Positions 49,128-64,000 are shown, numbered from the stretch's first letter. The stretch is 64,000 bases of DNA from Kocuria palustris (GCF_016907795.1 NZ_JAFBCR010000001.1:310001-374000), one strand, 5' to 3'. Notes: generated by a model from the sequence alone, not told the origin. A program made the numbers and translations.

Positions 49128-50459
49128 TCAAGCACGCCGATCCGCCTCCTGCAGCGGGATCCGGGCCATGAGCTCCCAAATGTCCAGCTGGCGCCCGAAA
49201 CTCAGCTCGCCGCCGAAGATGTCCACGCGCTCGCTCAGGCCGACCAGTCCGAGGCCGCCCTCCAGGAAGATCTCCCGGGGCAGTCGGGCGCTGCGGCTGC
49301 GGGCATCGCGGACCAGGTTGCGCACCCGGATCACCGCGATCGAGCGGCCCTGCGGCGTGGTCTCCAGGCTGGCGCTGAGGCTCACCGGCGCGCTCGGGAT
49401 CCCGTGGCGGATGGCGTTGGCGGTGCCCTCGCGCAGCACGCGCTGGCACAGGGACCGCACGCTCGTGGCGATCTCCTCCCAGCCGTCTCCGCGGGCGATC
49501 TCGACCCGGTCGAATCCGGCGTCCTCGAGCAGCTGACGACACCGGTCGAGCGCGGTCTCCATGGAGTCCGTGGGCGCGGTGGGACGCTGCGCACCGGTCT
49601 GATCGGTGCGCAGCGCCTGGTGCTGGGGAGCGATCCCGTCCTCGAGCGCGGTGGCCTCCCCCGCCTCCTCCTGCAGGGCCGAGACCATGCGGCGCAGATC
49701 CTCGATGGTGCCCGAGGCTCCGTCGGCGATGTCCTGCAGCACCCGGCGCTGCACCTGCGGCCCCCCGGAGAGCAGCCCGGCATTGGCCCGCAGCGCGGTG
49801 GCCGTGACGTCGTGGGCCACGAGGTCGTGCAGCTCGCGAGCCAGGTCCCGGCGCTCGGCCGAGCGCACTCCGGCCACCTCGGTCTCCAGCTGGGCGACCC
49901 GCAGCTGGGTGAGCCGGGCCCGGCACCGGAAGAAGCGGATGGTCCAGCCCACGGCAGAGCCGGCGAAGATCATGAAGGCGAGCAGGAACGCCTGCATGCG
50001 GATGGTGACGGTGTCTCCGAGCCCCACCAGGGACAGGGCCGCCGTGAGCTGGGCGAGCATCAGCAGCATGCCCACGCCCCAGCGGTTCCACATGCACAGG
50101 ATGACGCAGCAGATGATCGCCGGGGCGACCACAGCGATCGGCTGCTGGCTGAGCAGCACCATGGCATAGGCCACGGTCAGAGCCACAACGCACAGACCGC
50201 GGGTGATCCACACGCAGATCAGCGGCAGGAAGATGACGATCAGCGTGAAGGACAGAGCCTCCCCGCTCAGCCAGGCCTGCCCCAGGAGGTTGCTGATGAC
50301 CTGCAGCCCCAGGAAGATCAGGACAATCAGCAGCATGGCCGCCCGGAACGGCACGGGAGGGGCGAGGACCGCGGAGTCGGCCAGCTCCGGCCATCGGCTG
50401 TCCACGGCTGCGGTGAAGCGTCGCCAGAGCCGGGGAGGCTCGAGCAGATCGGCCCTCAT
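49128..50459 (-). CDS. NarL-type sensor histidine kinase
   Basis: A 443-residue membrane kinase. Six hydrophobic segments fill residues 40-190 (for example AMLLIVLIFLGLQVISNLLG and MQAFLLAFMIFAGSAVGWTI). These are followed by a HisKA_3 dimerisation domain with the phospho-acceptor His in RRDLARELHDLVAHDVTA. The ATP-binding domain is diverged but keeps the N-box-like EGTANAIRHG and GGLGLVGLSERVDIFGG. Few extracytoplasmic residues are present, so it probably senses membrane or wall stress through its transmembrane domain. The partner response regulator is divergent, 259 bp away. Confidence 0.9.
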   Translation of the reverse strand: MRADLLEPPRLWRRFTAAVDSRWPELADSAVLAPPVPFRAAMLLIVLIFLGLQVISNLLGQAWLSGEALSFTLIVIFLPLICVWITRGLCVVALTVAYAMVLLSQQPIAVVAPAIICCVILCMWNRWGVGMLLMLAQLTAALSLVGLGDTVTIRMQAFLLAFMIFAGSAVGWTIRFFRCRARLTQLRVAQLETEVAGVRSAERRDLARELHDLVAHDVTATALRANAGLLSGGPQVQRRVLQDIADGASGTIEDLRRMVSALQEEAGEATALEDGIAPQHQALRTDQTGAQRPTAPTDSMETALDRCRQLLEDAGFDRVEIARGDGWEEIATSVRSLCQRVLREGTANAIRHGIPSAPVSLSASLETTPQGRSIAVIRVRNLVRDARSRSARLPREIFLEGGLGLVGLSERVDIFGGELSFGRQLDIWELMARIPLQEADRRA

Positions 50460-50718: not shown

Positions 50719-51402
50719 ATGACCAGGGATCAGTCTCCGGAGCCCGGCTCCGACGAGCTGCTGAGCGTGCTGATCGCCGATGACGAGGCGGTCGTCCGCG
50801 AGACCATCTCCATCTATGTGAACAGCGCCCCCGACATGCAGGTCGTGGGGACCGCCGCGGATGGGCGCGCGGCCGTGCAGATGGCCGAGACCCTGCGTCC
50901 GGACATCATCCTGATGGACATACAGATGCCGCGCGTGGACGGCGTCGAGGCCGTCGCTGAGGTGCTTCGGCTCATGCCGCGCACTCACGTGGTGATGATC
51001 ACGACGTTCACCTCCCGGGAGGCCGTCGTTCCCGCCCTGCGCGCCGGCGCCCTGGGCTACGTCCTGAAGTCCGATCCGCCCGAGCGGCTGCTCTCCGCGG
51101 TGCGCGAGGCCGTGGCCGGACGCACCCAGCTCTCCCCTCAGGCCCTCGAGGCGGTGGTGGGGCATCTGCGCGAATCGGACAACCGGGCCAGCCTGCCCGC
51201 CTCCGTCACGCTGACGGCCCGCGAGTCCGAGGTGCTCAACCACCTGGCCGAAGGCCACAGCAACCGGGAGATCGCCGAGCTCATGGTCCTGTCCGAGAAG
51301 TCCGTGAAGCTTCACGTGACGAACATGGTGTCCAAGTTCCAGGTCCGCGACCGGCTGCAGCTGGTCATCGCCGCTCACAAGGCCGGGCTCATCCAGCTCT
51401 GA
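50719..51402 (+). CDS. NarL/LuxR-type response regulator
   Basis: A 227-residue regulator with a receiver domain (acidic pocket in VLIADDEAVVRE, phospho-acceptor Asp in IILMDIQMPRVDG, Thr in VMITTFTS and Lys in GYVLKSDPP) and a C-terminal LuxR helix-turn-helix (LTARESEVLNHLAEGHSNREIA, then LSEKSVKLHVTNMVSKF). GGAG precedes the ATG by six bases. With the divergent kinase it forms a two-component system; its position next to the polysaccharide cluster makes control of that cluster plausible but unproven. A 36-bp stretch near its 3' end has a diverged copy at 63459-63494. Confidence 0.93.
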   Translation: MTRDQSPEPGSDELLSVLIADDEAVVRETISIYVNSAPDMQVVGTAADGRAAVQMAETLRPDIILMDIQMPRVDGVEAVAEVLRLMPRTHVVMITTFTSREAVVPALRAGALGYVLKSDPPERLLSAVREAVAGRTQLSPQALEAVVGHLRESDNRASLPASVTLTARESEVLNHLAEGHSNREIAELMVLSEKSVKLHVTNMVSKFQVRDRLQLVIAAHKAGLIQL

Positions 51403-51457: not shown

Positions 51458-51918
51458 GGGGACAGCTGTGTGAGAATCTGCTGAGGATTGCCTGTCCGCC
51501 CGCCGATGAGTGAAAGAGTCACCGATGCCGCTGACCGTGATGCCGATCTACGGAACCCGCCCGGAGGCCATCAAGATGGCACCGATCGTGAAGGCCCTGC
51601 AGGACTCCGACGAGTTCCAGTGCGTGGTGACCGTGACCGGCCAGCACCGCGAGATGCTCGATCAGGTCAACGAGATCTTCGACATCACCCCGGATCACGA
51701 CCTCAACATCATCCGCCCCCGCCAAACCCTCAACGGCGTGCTCACCCGCACCGTCGAAGGCCTGGATACGATCTTCGAGCACAACGCCCCCGACGCCGTC
51801 GTCGTCCAGGGCGACACCACCACCTCCACCGCCGGTGCGATCGCCGCGTTCTACCGCGGCATCCCCGTGATCCACGCCGAGGCCGGACTGCGCTCCTTCG
51901 ACCTGTTCTCCCCCTTCC
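51458..51918. repeat. Direct repeat, copy 1 (wecB promoter and first 394 coding bases)
   Basis: By eye 460 of 461 bases are identical to 63540-64000; the single difference is a silent Ala codon (GCA here, GCC there). The repeat begins 67 bp upstream of the wecB ATG. It may be longer, since the second copy is cut by the window edge. Confidence 0.95.
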
Positions 51919-52688
51919 CGGAGGAGGCCAACCGCAAGATGACCTCCCAGATCGCCTCCCTGCACCTGGCCCCGACCGACATCTCCCGGCGCAACCTGAT
52001 GGCCGAGTCCATCAACGGCGACGACATCGTGGTCACCGGCAACACCGTGATCGACGCCCTGCACCACACCGTGGCCCGCGAACTGCCCTTCACCGACCCC
52101 GCCCTGGAGGACCTGGCCGCCTCCGGACGCCGCGTCCTGCTGGTCACCACCCACCGCCGCGAGAACCAGGGCGATGCCATGCGCGGCGTGGGCCGCGCCC
52201 TGGCACGCATCGCAGCCGATGAGCCCGATCTGACCATCGTGCTGCCGGCCCACCGCAACCCCGTGGTCCGCGAAGCCGTGCTACCGGCCCTGGAAGGCCT
52301 GGACAACGTCCTGGTCACCGAACCCCTGGCCTACGGCGAGTTCACCCGCATGCTCGCCGTGGCAGACGTCGTCCTCACCGACTCCGGCGGAGTCCAGGAA
52401 GAGGCCCCGTCGCTGGGCAAGCCCGTGCTCGTGATGCGCGAGAACACCGAACGCCCCGAAGCCGTCACCGCCGGCACCGTCAAGCTCATCGGCACCGACG
52501 AGGAGCGCATCGTCGAAGAGGTCTCCACCCTGCTGCACAACGAGGCCATCTACACCTCCATGGCCAACGCCGTGAACCCCTACGGCGACGGCCGCGCCGC
52601 CGAACGCACCGTAGCCGCCATCGCCCACATGTTCGGTCTCGGTGAGCGCCTGCCCGACTTCGCACCCGAGACCCAGCCACAGGGCTGA
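51525..52688 (+). CDS. wecB: UDP-N-acetylglucosamine 2-epimerase (non-hydrolysing), copy 1
   Basis: A 387-residue enzyme that interconverts UDP-GlcNAc and UDP-ManNAc. The signatures are VMPIYGTRPEAIKMAPIVKAL, VVQGDTTTSTAGAIAAFYRG, HAEAGLRSFDLFSPFPEEANR, TTHRRENQG and TDSGGVQEEAPSLGKPVLVMRENTERPEA (only the core TDSGGVQEEAPSLGKPVL is cited as diagnostic). The ATG at 51525 follows a weak AAAGAG; a GTG at 51510 is possible. With wecC at 61745 it supplies UDP-ManNAcA, the building block of Micrococcus-type teichuronic acid. Codons end overwhelmingly in C. Confidence 0.95.
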   Translation: MPLTVMPIYGTRPEAIKMAPIVKALQDSDEFQCVVTVTGQHREMLDQVNEIFDITPDHDLNIIRPRQTLNGVLTRTVEGLDTIFEHNAPDAVVVQGDTTTSTAGAIAAFYRGIPVIHAEAGLRSFDLFSPFPEEANRKMTSQIASLHLAPTDISRRNLMAESINGDDIVVTGNTVIDALHHTVARELPFTDPALEDLAASGRRVLLVTTHRRENQGDAMRGVGRALARIAADEPDLTIVLPAHRNPVVREAVLPALEGLDNVLVTEPLAYGEFTRMLAVADVVLTDSGGVQEEAPSLGKPVLVMRENTERPEAVTAGTVKLIGTDEERIVEEVSTLLHNEAIYTSMANAVNPYGDGRAAERTVAAIAHMFGLGERLPDFAPETQPQG

Positions 52689-52705
52689 GCTCTGAGGTCT
52701 GCAGC

Positions 52706-54037
52706 ATGGAACACAACCCGGAGGCGGTCGAACGGGAGTATCCGAGCCTCGAGGACTTCACCGTTGCGCTGCGCTCGGAGAGCTTCCCTCTCGACACGCA
52801 GGTGAGACTCATCATCCAGCGCGGTGAGCGGGCTCCGCTGCCGCTTCTGCTGGTGCGCCGCCCGGAAGCCGAGCGCGTCACCATCCTGTTCAACGGTGCG
52901 GTCGACCTCGAGCGGACGGGCGGCCAGCCGATCTTCCAGCGCTCCAGCTGGTGGCGCTCGATCCCCACGCATCAGATCTACGTCTGCGATCCGGGAACCG
53001 CGGGTGAGGATGCCCTGTCACTGAACTGGGGGCAGGAGTCCCTCGCCCACGATGCTCTCCCGGACATCGGCTCCGCCGTCCGGACCCTGTGCTGCGCCCT
53101 GGGAGTGCTCGACTCCCGCCGACGGACCTACTTCGGCTCGTCGGCGGGAGGGTTCCTGGCCCTCATGACGGCGGCCCAGGACGACGATCCGCACGTAGTC
53201 GTCAACAACGCGCAATTCGACTGGACTCGCTGGATGAGAGGCGGCGTCGTCGCCCTGTCCGCCCGGCGATTCAACGCAGCGGCACCGGCGGCGCTGCGGC
53301 GAGCCATACCCTGGCGGACGAGCGCGCTGCGGCGGCTCTCGCAGCGCAGCACACCGCTGAGCGTCGACTACTGGGTCAACATCGCTTCCCCGCATGATCT
53401 GAAGGTGGACCTGACCCAGGCCATGAGCTTCGTCCACGACGAGCGAGCACTCGCCGAACGGTTTGCCATCCATCGCTACAGCGACCCCGTTTCGCTCCAC
53501 AACCCGCTCGGTCGCGAACAGACGCTGGAACTGCTCTCCAGCCACCCAGCAGCACCGCAGACGGTCACGATGGAGGCCTTCGCCGAGACACCAGCGCCCG
53601 GTCTGCAACCGGGAGATCCCCAGATCAGGTACACCCCAGCCGCATCAGAGGCCGGCTATGCGTACCCGCTGACCGGTGGAGCCGACTGCCGCCCCATAGC
53701 TCGCATCCGCCCGGGTCTCAGTCAACGGGACGCCCTCATCATCGCGGAACTGATCGGTGTAAATGGCGATCGCCGTCCTGCTCCCGGCTGGCACTGGTCG
53801 CAGAGGAAGCGGCGCAGCTTCCAGTACCTCTCCGGTGGACATCCCGTACACGAGGATTGGGTCGAACTGCCCGAGATCCCCACCGACGATTCGGACATCG
53901 GCATCGTTCTGAGCATCAGCCCATGGCCCGCTCGGGGAGAGGACCCCCGTCGACTGGTCGAGGCCCTCGGCTTGAAGTCGGAGACGCAGACACGAACCGA
54001 CAGTCTGAATGAGACAAGCTTCCGAGAGCTGCAGTGA
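52706..54037 (+). CDS. Alpha/beta-hydrolase-like protein of a surface polysaccharide cluster
   Basis: A 443-residue protein with one alpha/beta-hydrolase-type domain. The nucleophile elbow is TYFGSSAGGFLALM; the early strand VTILFNGAVDLE and the later HHAFAQ-like triad region are less clear. The relative at 26825 has two such domains and the same overall order. No signal peptide is seen. It starts 17 bp after wecB, so they probably form one transcript. It may add or remove acyl groups on the polymer or process a glycan intermediate (inference). The last 150 residues are not recognised and may bind substrate. Confidence 0.65.
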   Translation: MEHNPEAVEREYPSLEDFTVALRSESFPLDTQVRLIIQRGERAPLPLLLVRRPEAERVTILFNGAVDLERTGGQPIFQRSSWWRSIPTHQIYVCDPGTAGEDALSLNWGQESLAHDALPDIGSAVRTLCCALGVLDSRRRTYFGSSAGGFLALMTAAQDDDPHVVVNNAQFDWTRWMRGGVVALSARRFNAAAPAALRRAIPWRTSALRRLSQRSTPLSVDYWVNIASPHDLKVDLTQAMSFVHDERALAERFAIHRYSDPVSLHNPLGREQTLELLSSHPAAPQTVTMEAFAETPAPGLQPGDPQIRYTPAASEAGYAYPLTGGADCRPIARIRPGLSQRDALIIAELIGVNGDRRPAPGWHWSQRKRRSFQYLSGGHPVHEDWVELPEIPTDDSDIGIVLSISPWPARGEDPRRLVEALGLKSETQTRTDSLNETSFRELQ

Positions 54038-54137
54038 TCCGTGCTGGCGCCTCCACCTGACAGGTGCTGGGGCGAGTCGGGGCGACACATGAGGTCATAG
54101 GTAGACGTGCGAGCATAATCCTCGCACTCCATGGCTC

Positions 54138-54698
54138 CTACCTCGGACCTGGGAGACTGCGGATGACTCGTGCTGGAATGCCTCCCACCACCGTGTTTGC
54201 GGGCACGTCCTTCGTGACGACTGCGCCGGCCCCGACGGTGACCCCTCCGAGGACAGTCACCCCCGCGCCTACCCACGTTCCGTCGCCGATTGAGATGCCG
54301 GGGAACGAGACCCTCCCTGCACGTCGATCCGATCCGCCTACCGCGTGGGTGTCTGTGATGAATCGGGCGAAGGCTCCGATGTTGCAGTTCTTGCCGAACG
54401 TGACATTCGCGCGGATATAGACGTCACGGTTGAATGAGCAGCCTTCGCCGATGGTCGCGGGACCGACGATCTCAGCTCCCCTGCGCAGAAGCACCCGCTC
54501 GCCGAACCGCACGGTCCGTCCGCCGCTGGCGATGATCTTGCAGGAGGGATGGATCCGCACACCCGGTGCGCCGATGGCACCCTCAGCCCCGTTCCAACGT
54601 GTGGGGTGAGCACGTTCCAGCTGCTTCTCCAGCTCACTGAGGCGCTGGGTGAGCGCCGCTATGGCGCTGGCCGTCTCTTCATCCACCGGTCCATTCAA
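54138..54698 (-). CDS. Hexapeptide-repeat (LbH) acyltransferase
   Basis: A 186-residue protein. An N-terminal coiled-coil (about 5-30: ASAIAALTQRLSELEKQLE) precedes a left-handed beta-helix of hexapeptide repeats (VRFGERVLLRRGAEIVGPATIG, in short runs), and ends GAGAVVTKDVPANTVVGGIPARVI, the standard signature of the acetyltransferase subfamily. A catalytic His is present in FITDTHAVGG. It probably acetylates a sugar of the polymer. The TTG start at 54698 is uncertain; a GTG at 54686 is an alternative, and no good ribosome binding site is visible for either. The 170 bp between it and the large glycosyltransferase hold nothing recognised. Confidence 0.85.
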   Translation of the reverse strand: MNGPVDEETASAIAALTQRLSELEKQLERAHPTRWNGAEGAIGAPGVRIHPSCKIIASGGRTVRFGERVLLRRGAEIVGPATIGEGCSFNRDVYIRANVTFGKNCNIGAFARFITDTHAVGGSDRRAGRVSFPGISIGDGTWVGAGVTVLGGVTVGAGAVVTKDVPANTVVGGIPARVIRSLPGPR

Positions 54699-54868
54699 GC
54701 GCGGACACGGCGACTGCTCAGGACTTCCTCACCCCGCCCGACCCTGAAGTCCGGGGCTGCTGCACACACGGATCACCCAGGACGTGGTGAACGCGGTGAG
54801 AGGGGCGACAGACGCCCCTCTGGTTCACCGCCGACTCACTGCCTAGGGTGAACGTCCGCCTCGAGGCT

Positions 54869-57800
54869 CTAGAGCGATACTGAACCATCGCGCAGAGATC
54901 GGACGTAGGCCGAGTCCTGCAACGGTGCTGCAGGGACCAATTCGAGGCTCTCCTGCAGCAGCAGGTGAGCCGAGAAGACAGCGCCTTCGCCGGATCCGGG
55001 TCCCTCAGGAAAGAGGAATCCATCGAGCGCTCCGACCGGGACTAGCTTGCAGGTGTCCATTCCCAGCAGATGCTGGTGAGCAGACAGCGACCGGCTTCCA
55101 TGGCCCAGGCGCTTCATGCGTCGGTCGTGGGGCGCATCGGAGCTTCGAGCACCTGTGGTCGCATCCTCGTCGACGAGTCCCCCGATGACCAGGGTGTCGG
55201 GACCGGCCGACAGCCACATGGACAGGATGCAGTTCTCATCCAAGCTGTCGTAGTCGTCAGCGAACGCGACATATGCTCCGCTGACCTGCTTCAGACCGAG
55301 ATTATGCGCGGCACCCACATCCGCCTGAGGCGAGTGGAGGTACCTGACAGTCATCTCACGGTGATCGTCCGCGAACTCCCCCACGAGTGCCCGTGTGCCA
55401 TCATCCGATCCGTTCTCGACCACGATCACTTCCAGCAGATGCTCGGGGAACGTCTGTGCTCCCAGCGATTCGAGCAGTCGAGGGATCCTGTTGCCTCCGC
55501 TGTGCGTCGCCACGATGACGGAGACCTTCTCCTCCTCGAGAGGAGGCATCTCGGTGGTTCGCCATTGCGCCAGCAGCTGCTTGGCCAGGCGACGGGAGTC
55601 CTCAGTCGAGACGGCAGAGCCTCCCTGCATGGGCCGCGGCTCGGCCTGGGCAGACACCGGCACGCCGGCACTGCGCAGCAGACGCAGCAGTCGGGGCCGA
55701 AGGCTCCCGATGTCCTCCCAATGATCGGCGGTGCTCACTGAGATCGGGTGGCGCTGCAGCAGCTGCAGCAGCGCCGTTCGGTGCACTGCGCTCACGTGGT
55801 CGGCACGACGCGCCATCGTGGCGTAGAACGGCTCGTCCCAACGACTGGCTTCCAGCACGAAGCAGCCGGGGATGCCCAGGGCCCTGGCCTCATCGAACAT
55901 GCTCGCCGCAGGCAGGAGTTCGTCAGGAGTGCTCCGCCGCAGCCGTCCTGCCCACGAGCCGCCCTGATCGGCCGACGAGAAGACGATCAGAGCGTCCAGA
56001 TCTGCTGTCAGATGCTTTGTGGGCTCCTCCGGCTCGACTGGGCGCACTTCCTTGACCAGACTCTGGAGCTCGCGAAGAGTCGCGGAGTCGGCGACCACTG
56101 CCAGCCGAAGATCGCCGAGCTGTTTCAGCAGCTCCGCAGGGGCAGCCACCCGAGCCTGTGATGTGGCCTCCAGCATCGAGCGACGGAAGGCAGCTGGATC
56201 CTGGTCCGAACGGACTGCTGCATCGCCCAAGCGTAGATCGAATCGGCGGTCCAGCACGGACATGCCATCCACCGCTCGAATCCGGGAATCGGCCCGGAGA
56301 AAGACCACACGGGCCAGCTGCGCAGAGAGGTCCGGCGAGCCTGGGTCCTGAATGGCACGTTCGACAAGAGAGATGTCCGCATCGTCCGTGACGATCCAGT
56401 GCACTCGACCGCCCAGCCTGTCGGCGGCATGCGCCGCAGTGAGCGCAGCCCACCATGGTCCAGCGACAACCAGGTCCGAGATGCCTCGAGCCGCTGCCTC
56501 GCGGGCTATATCCGATGCGGCGACGTGCACCCACCGGTCGAATCGCAGTCCGCGCGCAGCCGGAACAGCCGCCATGCCACGGTCCTGCTGGACGTCAGGA
56601 AGCCGGGCCGGTGGAGTGTCAGGCTGCTGCAGGCCTGGTGGAGTGTCCAAGTCCACGGCGAAGCGGTCCAAGCCGTACTCGGACCATCGCACGGTCATCT
56701 GCCCGCCGCCTCGCACCAGCAGAACGTCGACCGGATCAGTGATCTGCTCGGATTCCGAACCGGCCTGGCTGTTCGACGGCGGCAGGAAGAGAGAGAAGCG
56801 TCGGGTGTCAGCTGCGACCAGGCCGCGGCACAGCAGCTCGAGGTCCTTCAGCTTCCCCTGCTCTTGAGCGGTCACCCGCACATGGGCATCAAGGTCAGAC
56901 AGGGCCGCTTCCGTATCACCGCGGTCGAGATCCGCGACGACGCGCTCGTAGAGCATGGTGCCTTGCATGGTGCTGGCTACCACCTCCTCGGCCCCATCAT
57001 CAGAGATGTCCCGGCTCGCCTGATCCAGCAGGGAGAACCACTGGTCGTTGCACACGACATCTGCGGAGTACCGGTCCGAGTGGCTGCGCGCAGCCTGCGA
57101 GAGCGCCGCGAACGACTCACGAGACTCGTTCGCCTCCAGGATCACCTTCGCGATCTCCTCGGAGGAATCATGGACGAAACGGCCCCCGATGATCTCCTCG
57201 GCGCCCTCGCGCCGCCATGCCACGGGAACTGCCCCACTTCTGGCACCTTCGATGGCTGCCATGTGGAAGGTCTCTCGGGTGGATGTCGACAGGACCCAGC
57301 CGACCTTCCGCAGCCAATTGCCCATATCGGGCCCGAACGGCTCGAAGGCGATGTGCTCGCGCAAGCGCGGAGACCGGCCGATCCTGCGGAAGAACTCCCG
57401 GTATGCGTCCTGGTGGGCGGCCTTCTTCCACTCCCACACGTAGTTCCAAGGCGGGTTGCCCTTGAGATGCAGGATGTACCGATCATCGTGCTCGAGGAGG
57501 ATCTCCAAGACGTCCAGGGCACGATCCGGGCGCTTCAGGATCGGAACATATCCGATGAGCGCCAGATGGAAATGGGCGCCGTCCAGCTTGGGCCGGTCCA
57601 GGTCATCTGCATTGACGCTGTTCGGGATGACGATGACCTTCTCCGCAGGCCAATCCTTCATCTCGAGGCAGCGCTGCCGATAGAACTCGGAAGCCACCAC
57701 GATGCGATGCACATTGTGGATCTCGAGCTCATCGATCCAGGTGGAGAGCAGCTCGAAGCCGTGCAGATGGACGATGAGCTTCTGCTCGGGGCGGACATTC

Positions 57801-59071
57801 TGCGAATACCAGATCGCGTTGTGAGCCGCGAACTCCGCGATGATCACATCCGCCCATTCGAGGTACTTCCGGCTCGCCCAAGGCTGCGGCCGCGAATGAT
57901 GCACGAACCTGTCCACTCTGACGTCGAAATCGTCCTGGACCGCCAAGCGATCCACCAGATCGCCAGAGAACTTGAAATCGCTTCCAGCCAGGACCACCCG
58001 GGGCTTCCGCTGTTCGTCCTGGGCCGGCCGCCTGCGTAGGGTGCGGGTCTCCGAGAGAAGGGACGCGAAGGACGCGGCACCAGCGTCCTGGGTCTGGGGG
58101 CTCAGCTCTTCGCCGGACCCCGGAAGAAGCGCGCCTTCCACGTCCGTGGTGACCGTCATGCGCCTCGCCACAGCGATCTGACGCCCGATCTCGGCCAGGG
58201 CAGGCGCTGGATCCTCCGGCATGATCAGAACCCGATCTGCCGTGCTCTCAGCTGAGAGCTCCAGCAGGGGCAGGCTCTGGATCTCCGCACCCGGGAAATC
58301 GAGCAGAGCGCTTGCCTCACGGCGCCCCGTCTCTGCCTCAGCCGTGCCGCAAACCAGCAGACGAACCGGACGGCGCTGCTCTCGAGCCCGCGCCGTGATA
58401 TCGCGGGCAGACGGCATCGGCGATTCGCCCCAGAGGCTGAGGTCGACGACCACAGACCGGTCTGCGGGAGCCTCCGTGGGCGCCGGGGCCTGGTCGAGCA
58501 GCAGCTCGAGCATCGGCGCGACACGGGTCTTGGAGGTCGCTGCGCGGCTCCGGCTCTCCACGACCGATCGCTGCTGCTCGCTGGTGGTGACGATCCGGTA
58601 GCTGCCCGTGGCGATGTGCTCCAGCTCGGCGACCCTGCGTTCCGGCAGCACAGCAGCCATGACCGGGTCGTCATCGATCAGCGACCACAGCTTCTGCGTG
58701 AGCGTCCCCCCCGACGCTGCATCGCAGCACAGCGAGAAGCCCTGCGCCACGACGATGTCGATGTCCTCCTGGGCACCGAGGGCTGTGAGCTGTCGGCTCA
58801 CTGCATCGTGGCGATACGAGGTCTCGCCAAGTGCTGCGTCTTCGCTGCCGGTCTTCGGCGCTGATACGACAGCTGCCCCCAAGGCCTCCAGCGTGCTGTG
58901 CATGGGGAGGCGCTGCACGGCGCCTGAGACGAAGGTGACCTCAGCGCCTTCACGCAGCAGATCTCTCACGACAGCACCGAGCCATGCCTGAGCCAGCGCA
59001 CCGTCAGCCTCCTCCACCTCGGCTGCGACGAGTACAGACACGGCCTTCCTGCGGGTCTCCGTCACCGTCAC
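54869..59071 (-). CDS. 1400-residue multi-module glycosyltransferase (GT4 plus GT2)
   Basis: A very large soluble protein, apparently with four modules. Residues 1-330 look like a degenerate GT-B N-terminal half (VLVAAEVEEADGALAQAWLG, then IDIVVAQGFSLC). Residues 345-700 are a GT4-like GT-B enzyme (LIVHLHGFELLSTWIDELE, VIPNSVNADDLDRP, FGPDMGNWLRKVGWVLSTST, then ETFHMAAIEGARSGAVPVAW). Residues 780-1140 resemble another GT-B without clear catalytic motifs. Residues about 1170-1400 are GT2 (VSVIVATHSGGNRIPRLLESL, VENGSDDGTRALV, and AFADDYDSLDEN as the metal motif). It could add two different sugars, for example in an alternating polymer (inference). The GTG start overlaps the previous stop (GTGA). 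Confidence 0.85.
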   Translation of the reverse strand: MTVTETRRKAVSVLVAAEVEEADGALAQAWLGAVVRDLLREGAEVTFVSGAVQRLPMHSTLEALGAAVVSAPKTGSEDAALGETSYRHDAVSRQLTALGAQEDIDIVVAQGFSLCCDAASGGTLTQKLWSLIDDDPVMAAVLPERRVAELEHIATGSYRIVTTSEQQRSVVESRSRAATSKTRVAPMLELLLDQAPAPTEAPADRSVVVDLSLWGESPMPSARDITARAREQRRPVRLLVCGTAEAETGRREASALLDFPGAEIQSLPLLELSAESTADRVLIMPEDPAPALAEIGRQIAVARRMTVTTDVEGALLPGSGEELSPQTQDAGAASFASLLSETRTLRRRPAQDEQRKPRVVLAGSDFKFSGDLVDRLAVQDDFDVRVDRFVHHSRPQPWASRKYLEWADVIIAEFAAHNAIWYSQNVRPEQKLIVHLHGFELLSTWIDELEIHNVHRIVVASEFYRQRCLEMKDWPAEKVIVIPNSVNADDLDRPKLDGAHFHLALIGYVPILKRPDRALDVLEILLEHDDRYILHLKGNPPWNYVWEWKKAAHQDAYREFFRRIGRSPRLREHIAFEPFGPDMGNWLRKVGWVLSTSTRETFHMAAIEGARSGAVPVAWRREGAEEIIGGRFVHDSSEEIAKVILEANESRESFAALSQAARSHSDRYSADVVCNDQWFSLLDQASRDISDDGAEEVVASTMQGTMLYERVVADLDRGDTEAALSDLDAHVRVTAQEQGKLKDLELLCRGLVAADTRRFSLFLPPSNSQAGSESEQITDPVDVLLVRGGGQMTVRWSEYGLDRFAVDLDTPPGLQQPDTPPARLPDVQQDRGMAAVPAARGLRFDRWVHVAASDIAREAAARGISDLVVAGPWWAALTAAHAADRLGGRVHWIVTDDADISLVERAIQDPGSPDLSAQLARVVFLRADSRIRAVDGMSVLDRRFDLRLGDAAVRSDQDPAAFRRSMLEATSQARVAAPAELLKQLGDLRLAVVADSATLRELQSLVKEVRPVEPEEPTKHLTADLDALIVFSSADQGGSWAGRLRRSTPDELLPAASMFDEARALGIPGCFVLEASRWDEPFYATMARRADHVSAVHRTALLQLLQRHPISVSTADHWEDIGSLRPRLLRLLRSAGVPVSAQAEPRPMQGGSAVSTEDSRRLAKQLLAQWRTTEMPPLEEEKVSVIVATHSGGNRIPRLLESLGAQTFPEHLLEVIVVENGSDDGTRALVGEFADDHREMTVRYLHSPQADVGAAHNLGLKQVSGAYVAFADDYDSLDENCILSMWLSAGPDTLVIGGLVDEDATTGARSSDAPHDRRMKRLGHGSRSLSAHQHLLGMDTCKLVPVGALDGFLFPEGPGSGEGAVFSAHLLLQESLELVPAAPLQDSAYVRSLRDGSVSL

Positions 59072-59625
59072 TCCATTCCCTCACGCATCGCGGTAATCCG
59101 GCTCAGTTCGGCCCATACCCGGCCCTGCACTGCGTGCTCCTCCAGATCGGTGTCGGGGATCTGATTCATCCACTGCGTCGTCGTGGCGTCGATGAGCCTC
59201 CAGTTCGGACCCTGGCTGCGCCGTGGCGATGCGAGGGCGAGCACGCTGCGACCCGTCTCGCGGAAGATCCTGCCTGCCTCGAAGATCTCATCGGCCAGCT
59301 GGCGTCCGACACCGGAGTCGGCTCCCATCCACGGGCCGGCGTCGAAGGCCTCCTCATCGATGATCAGAACGGTGGCCTGGGTTCGCCGCGCCTGCAGAGC
59401 GGCGGCTCCTGGAATCGCCGCTTCCACGTCAAGCGGCTCCCGCAGCAGAGCGAGCGTGGCCGGGGCCGCTACAGCCAGCGCATCGGACACGCCTGACTTG
59501 TTCGGATCCTGCAGCAACGAGTGCAGATCCAGGCCGAATCGCGATTCGTTCACGGGAGGAGTCGACGCCCTGCCCAACGACCTCAGCAGTTCGGAGACAT
59601 GCATCAGATCAAGTTCTGCGCTCAT
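59068..59625 (-). CDS. Hypothetical protein in the polysaccharide operon, 185 residues
   Basis: A soluble protein starting MSAELDLMHVSELLRSLGRA. It contains LDVEAAIPGAAALQARRTQATVLIIDEEAFDAG (core ATVLIIDEEAFDAGPW) and GRQLADEIFEAGRIFRETGRSVLAL, which resemble the N-terminal half of a GT-B fold but are too short for an enzyme. It overlaps both neighbours (TGATG upstream, GTGA downstream), so its dosage is tied to the two glycosyltransferases. It may be an accessory subunit. No family is recognised. Confidence 0.7.
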   Translation of the reverse strand: MSAELDLMHVSELLRSLGRASTPPVNESRFGLDLHSLLQDPNKSGVSDALAVAAPATLALLREPLDVEAAIPGAAALQARRTQATVLIIDEEAFDAGPWMGADSGVGRQLADEIFEAGRIFRETGRSVLALASPRRSQGPNWRLIDATTTQWMNQIPDTDLEEHAVQGRVWAELSRITAMREGME

Positions 59626-61289
59626 CAGAGCTGGTCCTCCACTTCCGGGAACTTGTCCACGACCATGCTCCACAGGGCATCACGGGCGCTGTAGACATCG
59701 CCGACCGGCGTCTTCACCGTCACCGGCTTGGACGAGAGGATCGATCCCTCCTCGAGGAACCCCCAGACCTTGGCCCGGGATCCGCTGTAATCGCTCCATT
59801 TGGAGGGGAGATAGGGGTTGACCTCGTGATGATCGCCCGACCGGGCATCGTTGACAATGAGATAGTCCATGAGGTCCGAGGTGGCCAGGAACTCCAGATA
59901 CGGCAGGGCTGAGTTCAGAGCCACCTGGTCTTCCATCCCCTGCGCTCCCACGCCGTCGATCGCACGAGCCACCAACGCGTCGAACTGGGCCTTGGAGAAC
60001 TGCCGCGGGCGACGCGAATTCTCTCCAGCAGGGATGTAGTTCGTGAACACATGCAGCCGCACACGATCGCGCAGCACCGGAGGCAGTCCGCGCATGGCCG
60101 ATGTGACCTCACGGATGCTTCGGCTCGAATAGAATTCACCGAAATAGGCGAGGTTCACGAAGTCCGGATCGACGCGGTACGGCGATCCGAGACGCTCGTA
60201 GTACGGTCGCGGCAAGGTGGGGTGATTGCTCACTCGACTATGCCGCTCGACGCGAGCTGCCAGCTCCGGATTCGAGATGGTCGCGAGCATGGTCTGCTTC
60301 TGATGCTCGTTCGTGAAGATGATCTCGTCAGCGAACGCATATACCAGCCGCTCCGCGAAGGCGAAGATCGAGAACTCCTCATCGGGAATTCCGCCGTACA
60401 GCTCCTCGACCCGTCGACGCAAGGGACCCGAGACCTCGTCCTCGACGACAGGGCCGCCACGAAGAAGGCCCTCCACATCGAGGGAGAGCGGATCGGAGAA
60501 CTCAGCGATCCACCGGACCTCAGGATTCCTGAGCTTGAACTCGGCCCCGGCGTAGAGCGAAGGGGCCCACATGGCTCGCGAGTACACGAAGTCATAGCCG
60601 CCGTTGGACGCCATGAATCCCTCGGCCAGGCGCGACGCCTGGACGGCGAATGCCTTGAACGGAGACCAAGAAGCCCAGGAGGGGTTCAGCGGCAGGAAGG
60701 TCTTCCGATTGACGTACGGTTGGGAGATGGCCTCGACCGTGAAGTCCTGCTTCTTCTTGTGGAGGAACGAGCAGGCGATGACGTCGACGCTGCGGCCGAA
60801 ATCCCGCAGCCGCTTCGAGGCAACAGACGCACCGGTGTCCTGGAACGGAGAGAAGTTGTACAGCAGGGCCAGCCCCTCCGAAGAAGGGCGCACTGAATCC
60901 CACGGGAAGACCGAAGACGCACCTTGGATCAGGTCGGTGATCTCCCGGCGCTGCTGAGGATCTGCCTGCTGCAGCACATCTCGCAACCATGCCACGGCGT
61001 CCAGCGCCGATTGGTCCAGCGTGCTGGACACCTCCGGCCGGTGCATCGCCACCTCATGCAGGTGAGCGTGCACTTCGACGCACCGCCGAACCATGTCCTC
61101 TGCGGCTCCGCCCAGATCAGCACTGGGCTCGCTGCGGTCGCTCTGGCCCTCGACGTCATCTGCGCCCAGGCCCACGAGCGCCTCTGCGCCCACCGCAGTC
61201 GCAGCACTGGAGAGAGCGTCATCAACGGCGAGTGAAGCCGTGTGCAAGACCTCGCTGGTCAGCAGACCTCGGGGATGAGAGTCCCTCAA
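59625..61289 (-). CDS. GT-B glycosyltransferase
   Basis: A 554-residue protein. The N-terminal 120 residues are helical and acidic; a GT4-like fold follows (LALLYNFSPFQDTGASVASKRL, DVIACSFLHKKKQDF, GGYDFVYSRAMWAPSLYAG, EIIFTNEHQKQTML, and VNLAYFGEFYSSRSI). The conserved C-terminal E-x7-E motif is not obvious, so it is a diverged member. The TTG start overlaps the previous stop (TTGA); the overlap, and GAGGA nine bases upstream, support it. It probably adds a sugar in polymer assembly; donor and acceptor are unknown. Confidence 0.78.
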   Translation of the reverse strand: MRDSHPRGLLTSEVLHTASLAVDDALSSAATAVGAEALVGLGADDVEGQSDRSEPSADLGGAAEDMVRRCVEVHAHLHEVAMHRPEVSSTLDQSALDAVAWLRDVLQQADPQQRREITDLIQGASSVFPWDSVRPSSEGLALLYNFSPFQDTGASVASKRLRDFGRSVDVIACSFLHKKKQDFTVEAISQPYVNRKTFLPLNPSWASWSPFKAFAVQASRLAEGFMASNGGYDFVYSRAMWAPSLYAGAEFKLRNPEVRWIAEFSDPLSLDVEGLLRGGPVVEDEVSGPLRRRVEELYGGIPDEEFSIFAFAERLVYAFADEIIFTNEHQKQTMLATISNPELAARVERHSRVSNHPTLPRPYYERLGSPYRVDPDFVNLAYFGEFYSSRSIREVTSAMRGLPPVLRDRVRLHVFTNYIPAGENSRRPRQFSKAQFDALVARAIDGVGAQGMEDQVALNSALPYLEFLATSDLMDYLIVNDARSGDHHEVNPYLPSKWSDYSGSRAKVWGFLEEGSILSSKPVTVKTPVGDVYSARDALWSMVVDKFPEVEDQL

Positions 61290-61696
61290 CGACCCGCGTC
61301 CTCAGCACGTGCAGCTGCGTCCATCTGCAGACGGAGCATCCGCACCTCCCGACGGAACTCGTTCGCGTACGCCGCGAACTCCTCGGTGTTCAGCTCGGTC
61401 ATCTGACGCGCGAGCTGATCGAATCCGATTCGGTCAGCCGCCTCCGCGGCCGCATTGAGCTTCTTGGTGGCGTTGTCGAGGCCAGCGCGGGCCTGCTTGG
61501 TCCCCTTGCGCTGAGACGTGTTCTGCCTGCGCATGCGCAGGTGCTCAGTCAGCGGGGTGAGCGCCAGCGAGCTGCCGATTAGAGCGAGGCTCGTCCGCTG
61601 ATGGCCCAGGACCGCCATACCCGCAGCAGCTGCACCGAAGAACACCCCCGAACCGAGGGCACCGAGATAGATCTGCTTCTCTCGAGCTGCGTCCAT
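61286..61696 (-). CDS. Small membrane protein with C-terminal coiled coil
   Basis: A 136-residue protein with two hydrophobic segments near the N-terminus (YLGALGSGVFFGAAAAGMAV and TSLALIGSSLALTPL). A long charged helix follows (KQARAGLDNATKKLNAAAEA, then EFAAYANEFRREVRMLRLQM) that is likely a coiled coil. No enzyme motif is present. GAAGGAG precedes the ATG. It sits between wecC and the GT-B gene in one operon, so it may anchor or organise the glycosyltransferases at the membrane (inference). Confidence 0.75.
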   Translation of the reverse strand: MDAAREKQIYLGALGSGVFFGAAAAGMAVLGHQRTSLALIGSSLALTPLTEHLRMRRQNTSQRKGTKQARAGLDNATKKLNAAAEAADRIGFDQLARQMTELNTEEFAAYANEFRREVRMLRLQMDAAARAEDAGR

Positions 61697-61744
61697 GATC
61701 CTTGTGTCTCCTTCTGATCGAGTCGGGGAACCGGGGTGATCGGC

Positions 61745-63007
61745 TCAGCGCCAGAGGCCCTTGGTATCCACCACAGCCTTGCCCTTCAGCGCCGCAGCAG
61801 GAACAGCCTTGAACTCATCGTGATCCACCAGCACCAGCACCACATCAGCACGCTCGATCGCCTCCGCAGTCTCGGCCAGCTCCACATTCGCCAACCCAGA
61901 CAGCACCTCCGGCAACTCCGACACATTCGGCTCCACCGCCAACACCGAGACCTCCGGCATCGACTCAGCCAGATCCTTGGCGATGTTCAACGCCGGCGAC
62001 TCCCGCAGATCATCGATATTCGCCTTGAACGCCAACCCCAGCGCCGCCACCACAGGCCTCTGGCGACCAGCCAGCGCCTCACGCACCTTGCCGATCACCC
62101 ACCGCGGCTTCCCATCATTGACCTCACGCGCCGTGCGGATCAGATTCGAGTTCTCCCGATCCGAAGACACGATGAACCACGGATCCACCGCAATGCAGTG
62201 CCCACCCACACCCGGACCCGGCTGCAGGATGTTCACCCGCGGATGATGATTGGCAAGCTCGATCAGCTCCCACACATCGATCCCCAGCTTGTCCGAGATC
62301 AACGACAGCTCATTCGCGAAAGCGATGTTCACATCACGGAACGAGTTCTCCGTCAGCTTCGCCATCTCCGCCGTGACATCATCCGTGACCAGCAGCTCAC
62401 CCTCACAGAACGTGGCATACACAGCCTTGCCCCGAGCGGCCGCCTCCGCAGTCATGCCCCCGATGATCCGGTCATTCGTGACCAGCTCCTCCATCGCACG
62501 CCCGGGCAGGATCCGCTCCGGGCAGTACGCCATATGGATCAGCTTCTTACCGCCCTGGGCCGCCTCCTCCGGATCCACCGTCAGATCCGGCCGAGCCTCC
62601 GTCAGCACCCGACCAAGCAGACGCGTGGTCTGCGGCGGCGAGGTCGACTCCAGGATCACCAGCTCATCACCCTCAAGCAGCGGAGCAATGCTGCGACCAG
62701 CAGCCTCGATATACGAGGTATCCCCCACATAGTCATCCTTGAACGGCGTCGGCACCGCGATCACGAACGCATCACCATGCTGCATCTCCGTCGAAGCCGT
62801 CAGCTGACCGGAGTCCACCGCACGCTTGAGCTCCTCCTCCAGGCCCGGCTCCACGATCGTGACCTCACCACGAGCCACCCGCTCCACCACAGACTCATTC
62901 ACATCCACGCCCTTGACCCGCACACCGCTGTTCGCCAGCGTCACCGCGGTCGGCAGGCCGATATAGCCCAACCCCACGAACACGACAGTCTGCTCGGTCT
63001 CACTCAT
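61745..63007 (-). CDS. wecC: UDP-N-acetyl-D-mannosamine dehydrogenase
   Basis: A 420-residue NAD-dependent enzyme that oxidises UDP-ManNAc twice, to UDP-ManNAcA. It shows the Rossmann start VVFVGLGYIGLPTAVTLANSG, the catalytic Lys region AEMAKLTENSFRDVNIAFANE (core KLTENSFRDVNIAF), the catalytic Cys in GPGVGGHCIAVDPWF and LGLAFKANIDDLRESPA. It resembles WecC more than UDP-glucose dehydrogenase, and the presence of wecB supports that. ATG at 63007 is preferred to GTG at 63013 because AAGGA is then at a usable distance. It heads the minus-strand operon that runs to 54869. Confidence 0.94.
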   Translation of the reverse strand: MSETEQTVVFVGLGYIGLPTAVTLANSGVRVKGVDVNESVVERVARGEVTIVEPGLEEELKRAVDSGQLTASTEMQHGDAFVIAVPTPFKDDYVGDTSYIEAAGRSIAPLLEGDELVILESTSPPQTTRLLGRVLTEARPDLTVDPEEAAQGGKKLIHMAYCPERILPGRAMEELVTNDRIIGGMTAEAAARGKAVYATFCEGELLVTDDVTAEMAKLTENSFRDVNIAFANELSLISDKLGIDVWELIELANHHPRVNILQPGPGVGGHCIAVDPWFIVSSDRENSNLIRTAREVNDGKPRWVIGKVREALAGRQRPVVAALGLAFKANIDDLRESPALNIAKDLAESMPEVSVLAVEPNVSELPEVLSGLANVELAETAEAIERADVVLVLVDHDEFKAVPAAALKGKAVVDTKGLWR

Positions 63008-63102
63008 GTGCACTCATCCTTGATCTCCGCCTCAGCGGTCGCTCCACGATGACCTCACCCGTCAGCAAGATGTGGACTGCTCTGGGCGCGCGGCCGGCGC
63101 AC

Positions 63103-63108
63103 ATCCTA
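63103..63108 (-). promoter_or_regulatory. -10 hexamer TAGGAT of the wecC operon
   Basis: TAGGAT lies inside the small palindrome CACATCCTATGTG, giving a leader of about 90 bases before the wecC ATG. No clear -35. Confidence 0.45.
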
Positions 63109-63450
63109 TGTGCAGACGAGGGCGGGGCTTCGGAATTTCGCGCCCACCCTACAGTTCCAACGACTCCACGAGCCGCACCGGACTCGGACTCGCGGCAGGG
63201 GCACTGCGTGTACCGCGACGCGGCACTCCCCCGAGCGTTCCCGCACGCCATCCACACTCTGGAGCCGACCCCGATGCCCACTGCCACGCCCACCCCTCGA
63301 CCCGCGGGCGGCCGGCGAGCAGTCACCTGAAGCGGGTCCCTCGGGACGCTGGAGCATGATCGCCCACAGCGCCAGCCTTCAGCCGCAGGACAATCGCTCC
63401 GAGAAGCAAGGAGCCGTCCCCTCAAGGCACTCAAGGCTGCGGTGGGGCTC

Positions 63451-63495
63451 CTGCGCGTGATCGCCGCGCACAAGCACGGGCTCTTCCAGCTCGGG
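63451..63495 (+). pseudogene. Relic of a LuxR-type response-regulator 3' end
   Basis: The frame reads LRVIAAHKHGLFQL, close to LVIAAHKAGLIQL at the end of the response regulator at 50719. Over 36 aligned bases I count 31 identities. The stop codon and upstream parts are lost. It lies 45 bp upstream of the second wecB repeat, as the intact gene lies 56 bp upstream of the first. Confidence 0.6.
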
Positions 63496-63539
63496 CCTGA
63501 GCACTTCCGCGTCGACACCCTGCGTCACGACCCAATAAT

Positions 63540-64000
63540 GGGGACAGCTGTGTGAGAATCTGCTGAGGATTGCCTGTCCGCCCGCCGATGAGTGAAAGAG
63601 TCACCGATGCCGCTGACCGTGATGCCGATCTACGGAACCCGCCCGGAGGCCATCAAGATGGCCCCGATCGTGAAGGCCCTGCAGGACTCCGACGAGTTCC
63701 AGTGCGTGGTGACCGTGACCGGCCAGCACCGCGAGATGCTCGATCAGGTCAACGAGATCTTCGACATCACCCCGGATCACGACCTCAACATCATCCGCCC
63801 CCGCCAAACCCTCAACGGCGTGCTCACCCGCACCGTCGAAGGCCTGGATACGATCTTCGAGCACAACGCCCCCGACGCCGTCGTCGTCCAGGGCGACACC
63901 ACCACCTCCACCGCCGGTGCGATCGCCGCGTTCTACCGCGGCATCCCCGTGATCCACGCCGAGGCCGGACTGCGCTCCTTCGACCTGTTCTCCCCCTTCC
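63540..64000. repeat. Direct repeat, copy 2 (continues past window edge)
   Basis: Matches 51458-51918 at 460 of 461 bases, in the same orientation, 12,082 bp apart. The left boundary is sharp; upstream identity drops at once. Confidence 0.95.
63607..64000 (+). CDS. wecB: UDP-N-acetylglucosamine 2-epimerase, copy 2 (partial)
   Basis: The first 131 codons are identical in protein sequence to the wecB copy at 51525, including VMPIYGTRPEAIKMAP and VVQGDTTTSTAGAIAAFY. The rest lies beyond the window. The frame is open and the promoter region is duplicated too, so this copy is probably expressed if complete. Whether it is full length cannot be seen. Confidence 0.92.
   Translation, partial: MPLTVMPIYGTRPEAIKMAPIVKALQDSDEFQCVVTVTGQHREMLDQVNEIFDITPDHDLNIIRPRQTLNGVLTRTVEGLDTIFEHNAPDAVVVQGDTTTSTAGAIAAFYRGIPVIHAEAGLRSFDLFSPF

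Follow-up and report, generated by a model that had tools for sequence, protein, structure and literature searches.

The Kocuria genome analysed here carries a doubled cell-surface glycopolymer locus, in which two alternative cassettes stand in tandem where relatives have one. Judging from the sequence, the two modules are probably older than the near-identity of the genes at their ends, and recent recombination within the chromosome, mainly gene conversion, would have homogenised these ends in this one strain. Surface-polymer loci swap their cargo between conserved flanks, and to our knowledge the intermediate state of such swapping has seldom been seen. Two complete cassettes with homogenised ends would show that replacement can proceed via a doubled state, with a polymer kept at every step.

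The window (that is, the whole stretch of 64,000 nucleotides that was analysed, G000:C1:310001-374000) is part of one 2,897,960-bp contig, in an assembly that is 99.96% complete. The locus extends beyond its right edge, and the layout can be written as RR-[wecB1-cargo A-wecC1]-[wecB2-cargo B-wecC2]-GTs-Wzt/Wzm exporter-LCP. From left to right, the genes are HK, RR, wecB1, cassette A, wecC1, a 0.5-kb junction, wecB2, cassette B and wecC2, which are followed by a pair of glycosyltransferase proteins, the conserved glycosyltransferase C684, a Wzt-like ATPase, a Wzm-like permease, two glycosyltransferases and an LCP protein. The features are as follows, in window numbering unless genome positions are indicated:

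49128..50459, minus strand: HK, sensor histidine kinase (HisKA_3), adjoining the locus
50722..51402, plus strand: RR, LuxR-type response regulator, intact, directly upstream of wecB1
51458..52661, plus strand: direct repeat copy 1, comprising the promoter region and wecB1 minus its last eight codons
51525..52688, plus strand: wecB1, non-hydrolysing UDP-GlcNAc 2-epimerase (TIGR00236), with the ATG at 51525 backed by relatives
52706..54037, plus strand: 443-aa hydrolase-like protein of cassette A, similar to the 933-aa protein of cassette B
54138..54698, minus strand: hexapeptide-repeat acetyltransferase of cassette A (PF00132)
54869..59071, minus strand: 1400-aa protein of cassette A, with a glycosyltransferase family 2 domain (PF00535, 9.4e-17)
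59068..59673, minus strand: 201-aa protein of cassette A, no family match
59625..61289, minus strand: 554-aa protein of cassette A, probable glycosyltransferase, no family match
61286..61696, minus strand: 136-aa protein of cassette A, no family match
61745..63013, minus strand: wecC1, UDP-ManNAc dehydrogenase (NF008286)
63445..63492, plus strand: decayed remnant of the 3' end of an RR gene, in the syntenic position before wecB2
63540..64000, running on to 64743 in window numbering, plus strand: direct repeat copy 2, cut by the window edge
63607..64000 in the window, plus strand: wecB2, start of a full-length gene that ends at genome 374770
genome 374891-388936: cassette B, beyond the window, between wecB2 and wecC2
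genome 389200-390468, same orientation as wecC1: wecC2, beyond the window

Each cassette (about 9 kb for A and about 14 kb for B) is bounded by a wecB of its own on the left and a wecC of its own on the right, and the reading frames are intact in both wecB and both wecC genes. The ABC exporter (Wzt/Wzm-like) and the LCP ligase form a single set common to both cassettes, located to the right of both. The occurrence of PF00005, PF01061 and PF03816 together with glycosyltransferase families, in an order conserved in Kocuria, marks the region as an ABC-exported wall or capsule polymer locus. The G+C content of both cargoes (53-66%) is below the 68% of the region, and lowered G+C is usual in exchanged polysaccharide genes. 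The names wecB and wecC, given by the initial annotation of this DNA, hold: wecB scores 451.5 bits against the equivalog profile TIGR00236 (cut-off 210, profile positions 2-363 of 366), and wecC scores 556 bits against the equivalog profile NF008286 (cut-off 459, profile positions 4-420 of 420). Since both are above the curated family cut-offs, both wecB/wecC pairs should supply UDP-ManNAc and UDP-ManNAcA.

Between these ends, the cargoes are different. The 1400-aa protein of cassette A also has a weak group-1 glycosyltransferase region, and homologues of the 201-aa protein adjoin the homologue of the 554-aa protein in other Micrococcaceae. Cassette B encodes a 933-aa protein, a 755-aa glycosyltransferase, a 204-aa protein, a pyruvyltransferase, a 392-aa protein, an acetyltransferase, a heparinase-like protein and a 988-aa glycosyltransferase. 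Besides the end genes, homologues in A and B are far apart, at 42-51% protein identity: the two acetyltransferases are 42% identical, and the 443-aa protein of A shares 51% identity with the C-terminal part of B's 933-aa protein over a length of 235 aa. A tandem duplication of one capsule locus, as in cap-b, has the same cargo twice, which is not what is found here.

The nearest named wecB loci are those of Kocuria. Among 26 other Kocuria genomes, a wecC of this kind is present in 18, all of which also have wecB. Both genes are single-copy at this similarity in these 18 genomes, a few of which carry a more distant wecB elsewhere (66-68%); draft assemblies might conceal near-identical repeats, and G006, a single contig, has one wecB and one wecC. 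The two genes are on one contig in 15 of the 18, framing one variable cargo, and in the loci read the usual order after wecC is C684, Wzt, Wzm, glycosyltransferases, LCP. G005 and G016 are exceptions, their loci being very short and LCP adjoining wecC directly. Cargo B resembles other Kocuria cargoes, and the genes of cargo A lie between wecC and wecB in L165 and in part also in L167, both from other Micrococcaceae genera. Because a single variable cargo occupies the place elsewhere and both cargoes have relatives in other genomes, A and B can be regarded as two alternative fillings of one slot, set in tandem.

Several further observations concern the Kocuria loci. The short loci of G005 and G016 (L131 and L144), in which the wecB-wecC interval is about 1.5 kb and contains a second dehydrogenase only, with no exporter before LCP, are natural near-empty versions of the cassette slot. 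In many Kocuria, a second nucleotide-sugar dehydrogenase comes directly after wecB (e.g., L120 16760-17971); it is about 30% identical to wecC, its closest models are UDP-glucose dehydrogenases of TuaD/AglM type, at scores below the cut-offs, and it is missing from both modules of the window genome. Only some Kocuria have the HK/RR pair beside wecB; G039 and G006, for example, lack it. Of this pair, the regulator is conserved, RR and its counterparts just before wecB in several Kocuria being about 75% identical, and the kinase much less so, HK being about 41% identical to the kinase at the same place in some Kocuria. Within Kocuria, the closest wecB and wecC are those of G039, whose wecB frame is broken after about 56 codons; unrelated sequence stands at the contig end (L141 1-70, G039:C44), and the remainder of the gene begins another contig (end of L140, G039:C6). 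This split gene was considered as a sign of a second repeat and rejected, because the contig enters unrelated IS-like sequence within wecB, and an insertion sequence probably lies inside the gene.

The wecB copies form a direct repeat of 1204 bp (51458-52661 and 63540-64743, window numbering), in which 1201 of 1204 positions match. The three mismatches are at 51581, 52542 and 52543, the longest exact run is 960 bp, and the sequences diverge abruptly on both sides of the block. The initial annotation, made from the window, had reported direct wecB repeats with one difference in 461 visible positions and a spacing of 12,082 bp; the former is confirmed, only 51581 being different, and so is the latter, measured from start to start on the same strand. 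The sequence past position 64,000 completes the second wecB as a full-length gene on the same strand, neither truncated nor inverted. This gene is annotated at genome 373592-374770 with a GTG start, but it more likely begins at the ATG at 373607. Just past the block, the last eight codons of the two copies align but differ (APETQPQG vs. NPEAKPVG), and this C-terminal WecB tail is also variable between species. The wecB repeat is far beyond chance, and within the surrounding 116 kb the sole other repeat of more than 80% identity and more than 100 bp is the wecC pair (61736-63024 and genome 389187-390479), which is 98.8% identical. The second wecC is 17.45 kb beyond the first.

Such repeats, 1.2-1.3 kb long and exactly at the cassette ends, are places where an assembly could misplace a cassette or the junction, so that order or copy number would be wrong, and short reads are blind to the order A-B versus B-A. 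However, the copies have fixed differences, the outer flanks of all four end genes (wecB1, wecB2, wecC1 and wecC2) differ, and the locus lies on the single long contig described above. An assembly error is thus considered very unlikely.

Then, why are the end genes nearly identical? At four-fold sites, the copies differ at 3 of 237 positions in wecB and at 5 of 249 in wecC, compared with 27-69% between this wecB and those of other species. Purifying selection or protein constraint is therefore ruled out as the cause. In addition, the wecB tree and the wecC tree each place the two copies as sisters, with 100/100 support. The initial annotation had put duplication or gene conversion behind the near-identity, and this reading is upheld. 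A recent duplication of wecB alone was rejected, since it fails to explain the second wecC, the parallel layout of the modules and the RR remnant. A plasmid origin was likewise set aside, as the 12.6 kb had no match in the plasmid collection.

The RR remnant upstream of wecB2 is a match of 47 bp at 79%, whose score of 29 exceeds the highest value, 24, of 1000 dinucleotide shuffles; just before it, an earlier part of RR is matched more weakly. Apart from this remnant, a search for the origin of the junction (63025-63440) gave no convincing match. In the wecB pair, the near-identical block lies between flanks that are homologous but diverged, which is the trace expected of gene conversion, and the copies are sisters in the tree. 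The wecC pair resembles it in block and tree; a diverged homologous flank was not found around its block, so that conversion at wecC would follow by analogy with wecB.

The best fit is gene conversion between two older, different modules. Two different modules, each with its own wecB and wecC, would predate the identity of the end genes, of which one wecB and one wecC would recently have been replaced by the sequence of the other copy through recombination inside the chromosome, chiefly by gene conversion. The low identity of the other homologues shared by A and B (42-51%) and an independent, gene-sized wecB pair at 98.6% in another genus also speak for it. Some points count against it. The different levels of divergence, about 1% in wecC and 0.25% in wecB, must mean that homogenisation took place at different times or incompletely, the RR remnant is short (47 bp), and the wecC block shows no flank of the kind seen at wecB.

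The main rival is a recent joining of two conspecific alleles, by which the loci of cassettes A and B would have been brought into tandem through transfer and recombination. Both loci would already have had the species-typical wecB and wecC, giving near-identity without later conversion. The identity levels are explained as well in this way, since 98.8-99.75% is within the range expected inside a species. The cassettes at the slot vary between species, other Micrococcaceae genera have genes of cassette A at this slot, and the variable WecB tail stays with each cassette, all of which suits a joining of alleles. The decayed RR end, however, speaks against it. Some 50 bp from sequence that is 99.75% identical, the remnant is so strongly decayed (79% over 47 bp, with the rest unrecognisable) that the flank upstream of wecB2 would be older than the identity, and the junction between wecC1 and the remnant would require an additional illegitimate event. 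A recent joining is possible but, in our estimate, rather unlikely, and gene conversion between older modules is preferred.

To the right of wecC2, two adjacent proteins of 536 and 474 aa (genome 390698-393763; L008 2698-5763) precede C684 and correspond, at about 50%, to the C-terminal and the N-terminal half of cassette B's 988-aa glycosyltransferase. Other Kocuria have nothing between wecC and C684, where this pair sits, and a similar split pair is found inside the cassette of L126. The pair is possibly the trace of a third cassette; a remnant of a further wecB or wecC was looked for beside C684, and none was found.

Recombination between the two wecB genes would remove 12,082 bp (cassette A and wecC1) and leave a complete cassette B locus, while recombination between the two wecC genes would remove 17,451 bp (wecB2 and cassette B) and leave cassette A. 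The predicted products have the single-cassette layout of the genus, save the extra glycosyltransferase pair between wecC2 and C684. Amplification by unequal crossing-over may also be possible. The initial annotation had proposed that the deletion leaves one wecB and polymer-negative cells, and thus a switch between two states. Its observation was right but incomplete, and the second wecC beyond the edge changes the meaning. Because the product of wecB recombination keeps wecB, cassette B, wecC2 and the exporter genes, no polymer-off state is expected, and recombination should drop one gene set or the other rather than turn the polymer off. It is true that direct repeats as long as 1.2 kb are good substrates for homologous recombination, which speaks for a reversible on/off switch. 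Nevertheless, direct repeats lead to deletion and not to two interconvertible forms, the deletion is not reversible by itself for either gene pair, and a complete cassette with its exporter remains, which makes a reversible switch hardly credible. Reading beyond the window edge turns the expected off-switch into a choice between two cassettes. More broadly, wecB and wecC might serve as recombination handles for the exchange of surface-polymer cassettes across Micrococcaceae, with the present genome caught in mid-replacement and resolving to A or B; this we consider doubtful. If true, the outcome would be set by the recombining gene pair, and mixed surface types could occur in one culture.

A family-wide search covered 295 genomes, 151 of them with a strong wecB match. 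Several have more than one wecB on one contig, and the double wecB/wecC frame was seen only in the window genome. For example, G150, from another Micrococcaceae genus, has two direct wecB copies 10,067 bp apart, which are 98.6% identical over a gene-sized block of 1170 bp (L169 1967-3112 and 12034-13167, G150:C61). They enclose apparent housekeeping genes, such as a RecG-like helicase, and adjoin a wecB-wecC-Wzt/Wzm locus; a single wecC was found in the 73 kb that were read. Near-identical wecB pairs have thus arisen independently at least twice in the family. The remaining wecB pairs compared are 70-78% identical. Separately, G230 has three same-strand wecB genes within 17 kb (L170, G230:C4:4001-24000), which are 71-73% identical to one another.

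A literature search on two-cassette capsule loci with gene conversion found no paper, and the present locus can be compared with four known cases. The cap-b locus of Haemophilus influenzae consists of tandem copies of the same serotype locus, linked to IS1016 and with a bexA-IS1016 deletion (PMC6535587). As there, a polysaccharide locus stands in tandem, with long homology between the copies and a copy number changeable by recombination; here, however, the two cargoes are different and the match is confined to the end genes, with no IS1016-like bracket seen. Concerted evolution of duplicated prokaryotic genes makes paralogues within a genome more alike than orthologues between species (PMC6053082). 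The two copies here are likewise closer to each other than to those of other species, whereas that work describes long-lasting cases across many genomes and the present case is one genome. The teichuronic acid of Micrococcus luteus, which belongs to the same family, is a ManNAcA-containing wall polymer made from UDP-ManNAcA (PMC3005890), the product expected of WecB and WecC. In contrast to M. luteus, glycosyltransferases and decorations differ between A and B, and the Kocuria polymer is known from its precursor genes alone, whereas a teichuronic acid locus of the ManNAcA-Glc type would make a peptidoglycan-linked polymer of ManNAcA and glucose; the M. luteus paper gives no gene cluster for comparison. 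In the cps locus of Neisseria meningitidis, duplicated D/D' and galE1/galE2 genes surround a mosaic capsule region, with a truncated galE2, a partial D' and galE copies that support inversion; whether the duplicated genes arose by duplication or by transfer is debated (PMC6619384, PMC3647402). Both loci have duplicated sugar-precursor genes at the ends of an exchanged, recombination-mosaic region. Unlike those of N. meningitidis, both copies here are full-length direct repeats, bracketing two different complete cassettes. Therefore, while mosaic capsule and wall-polymer loci are already known, what is new is the presence of two different complete cassettes with direct, full-length and near-identical genes at both ends.
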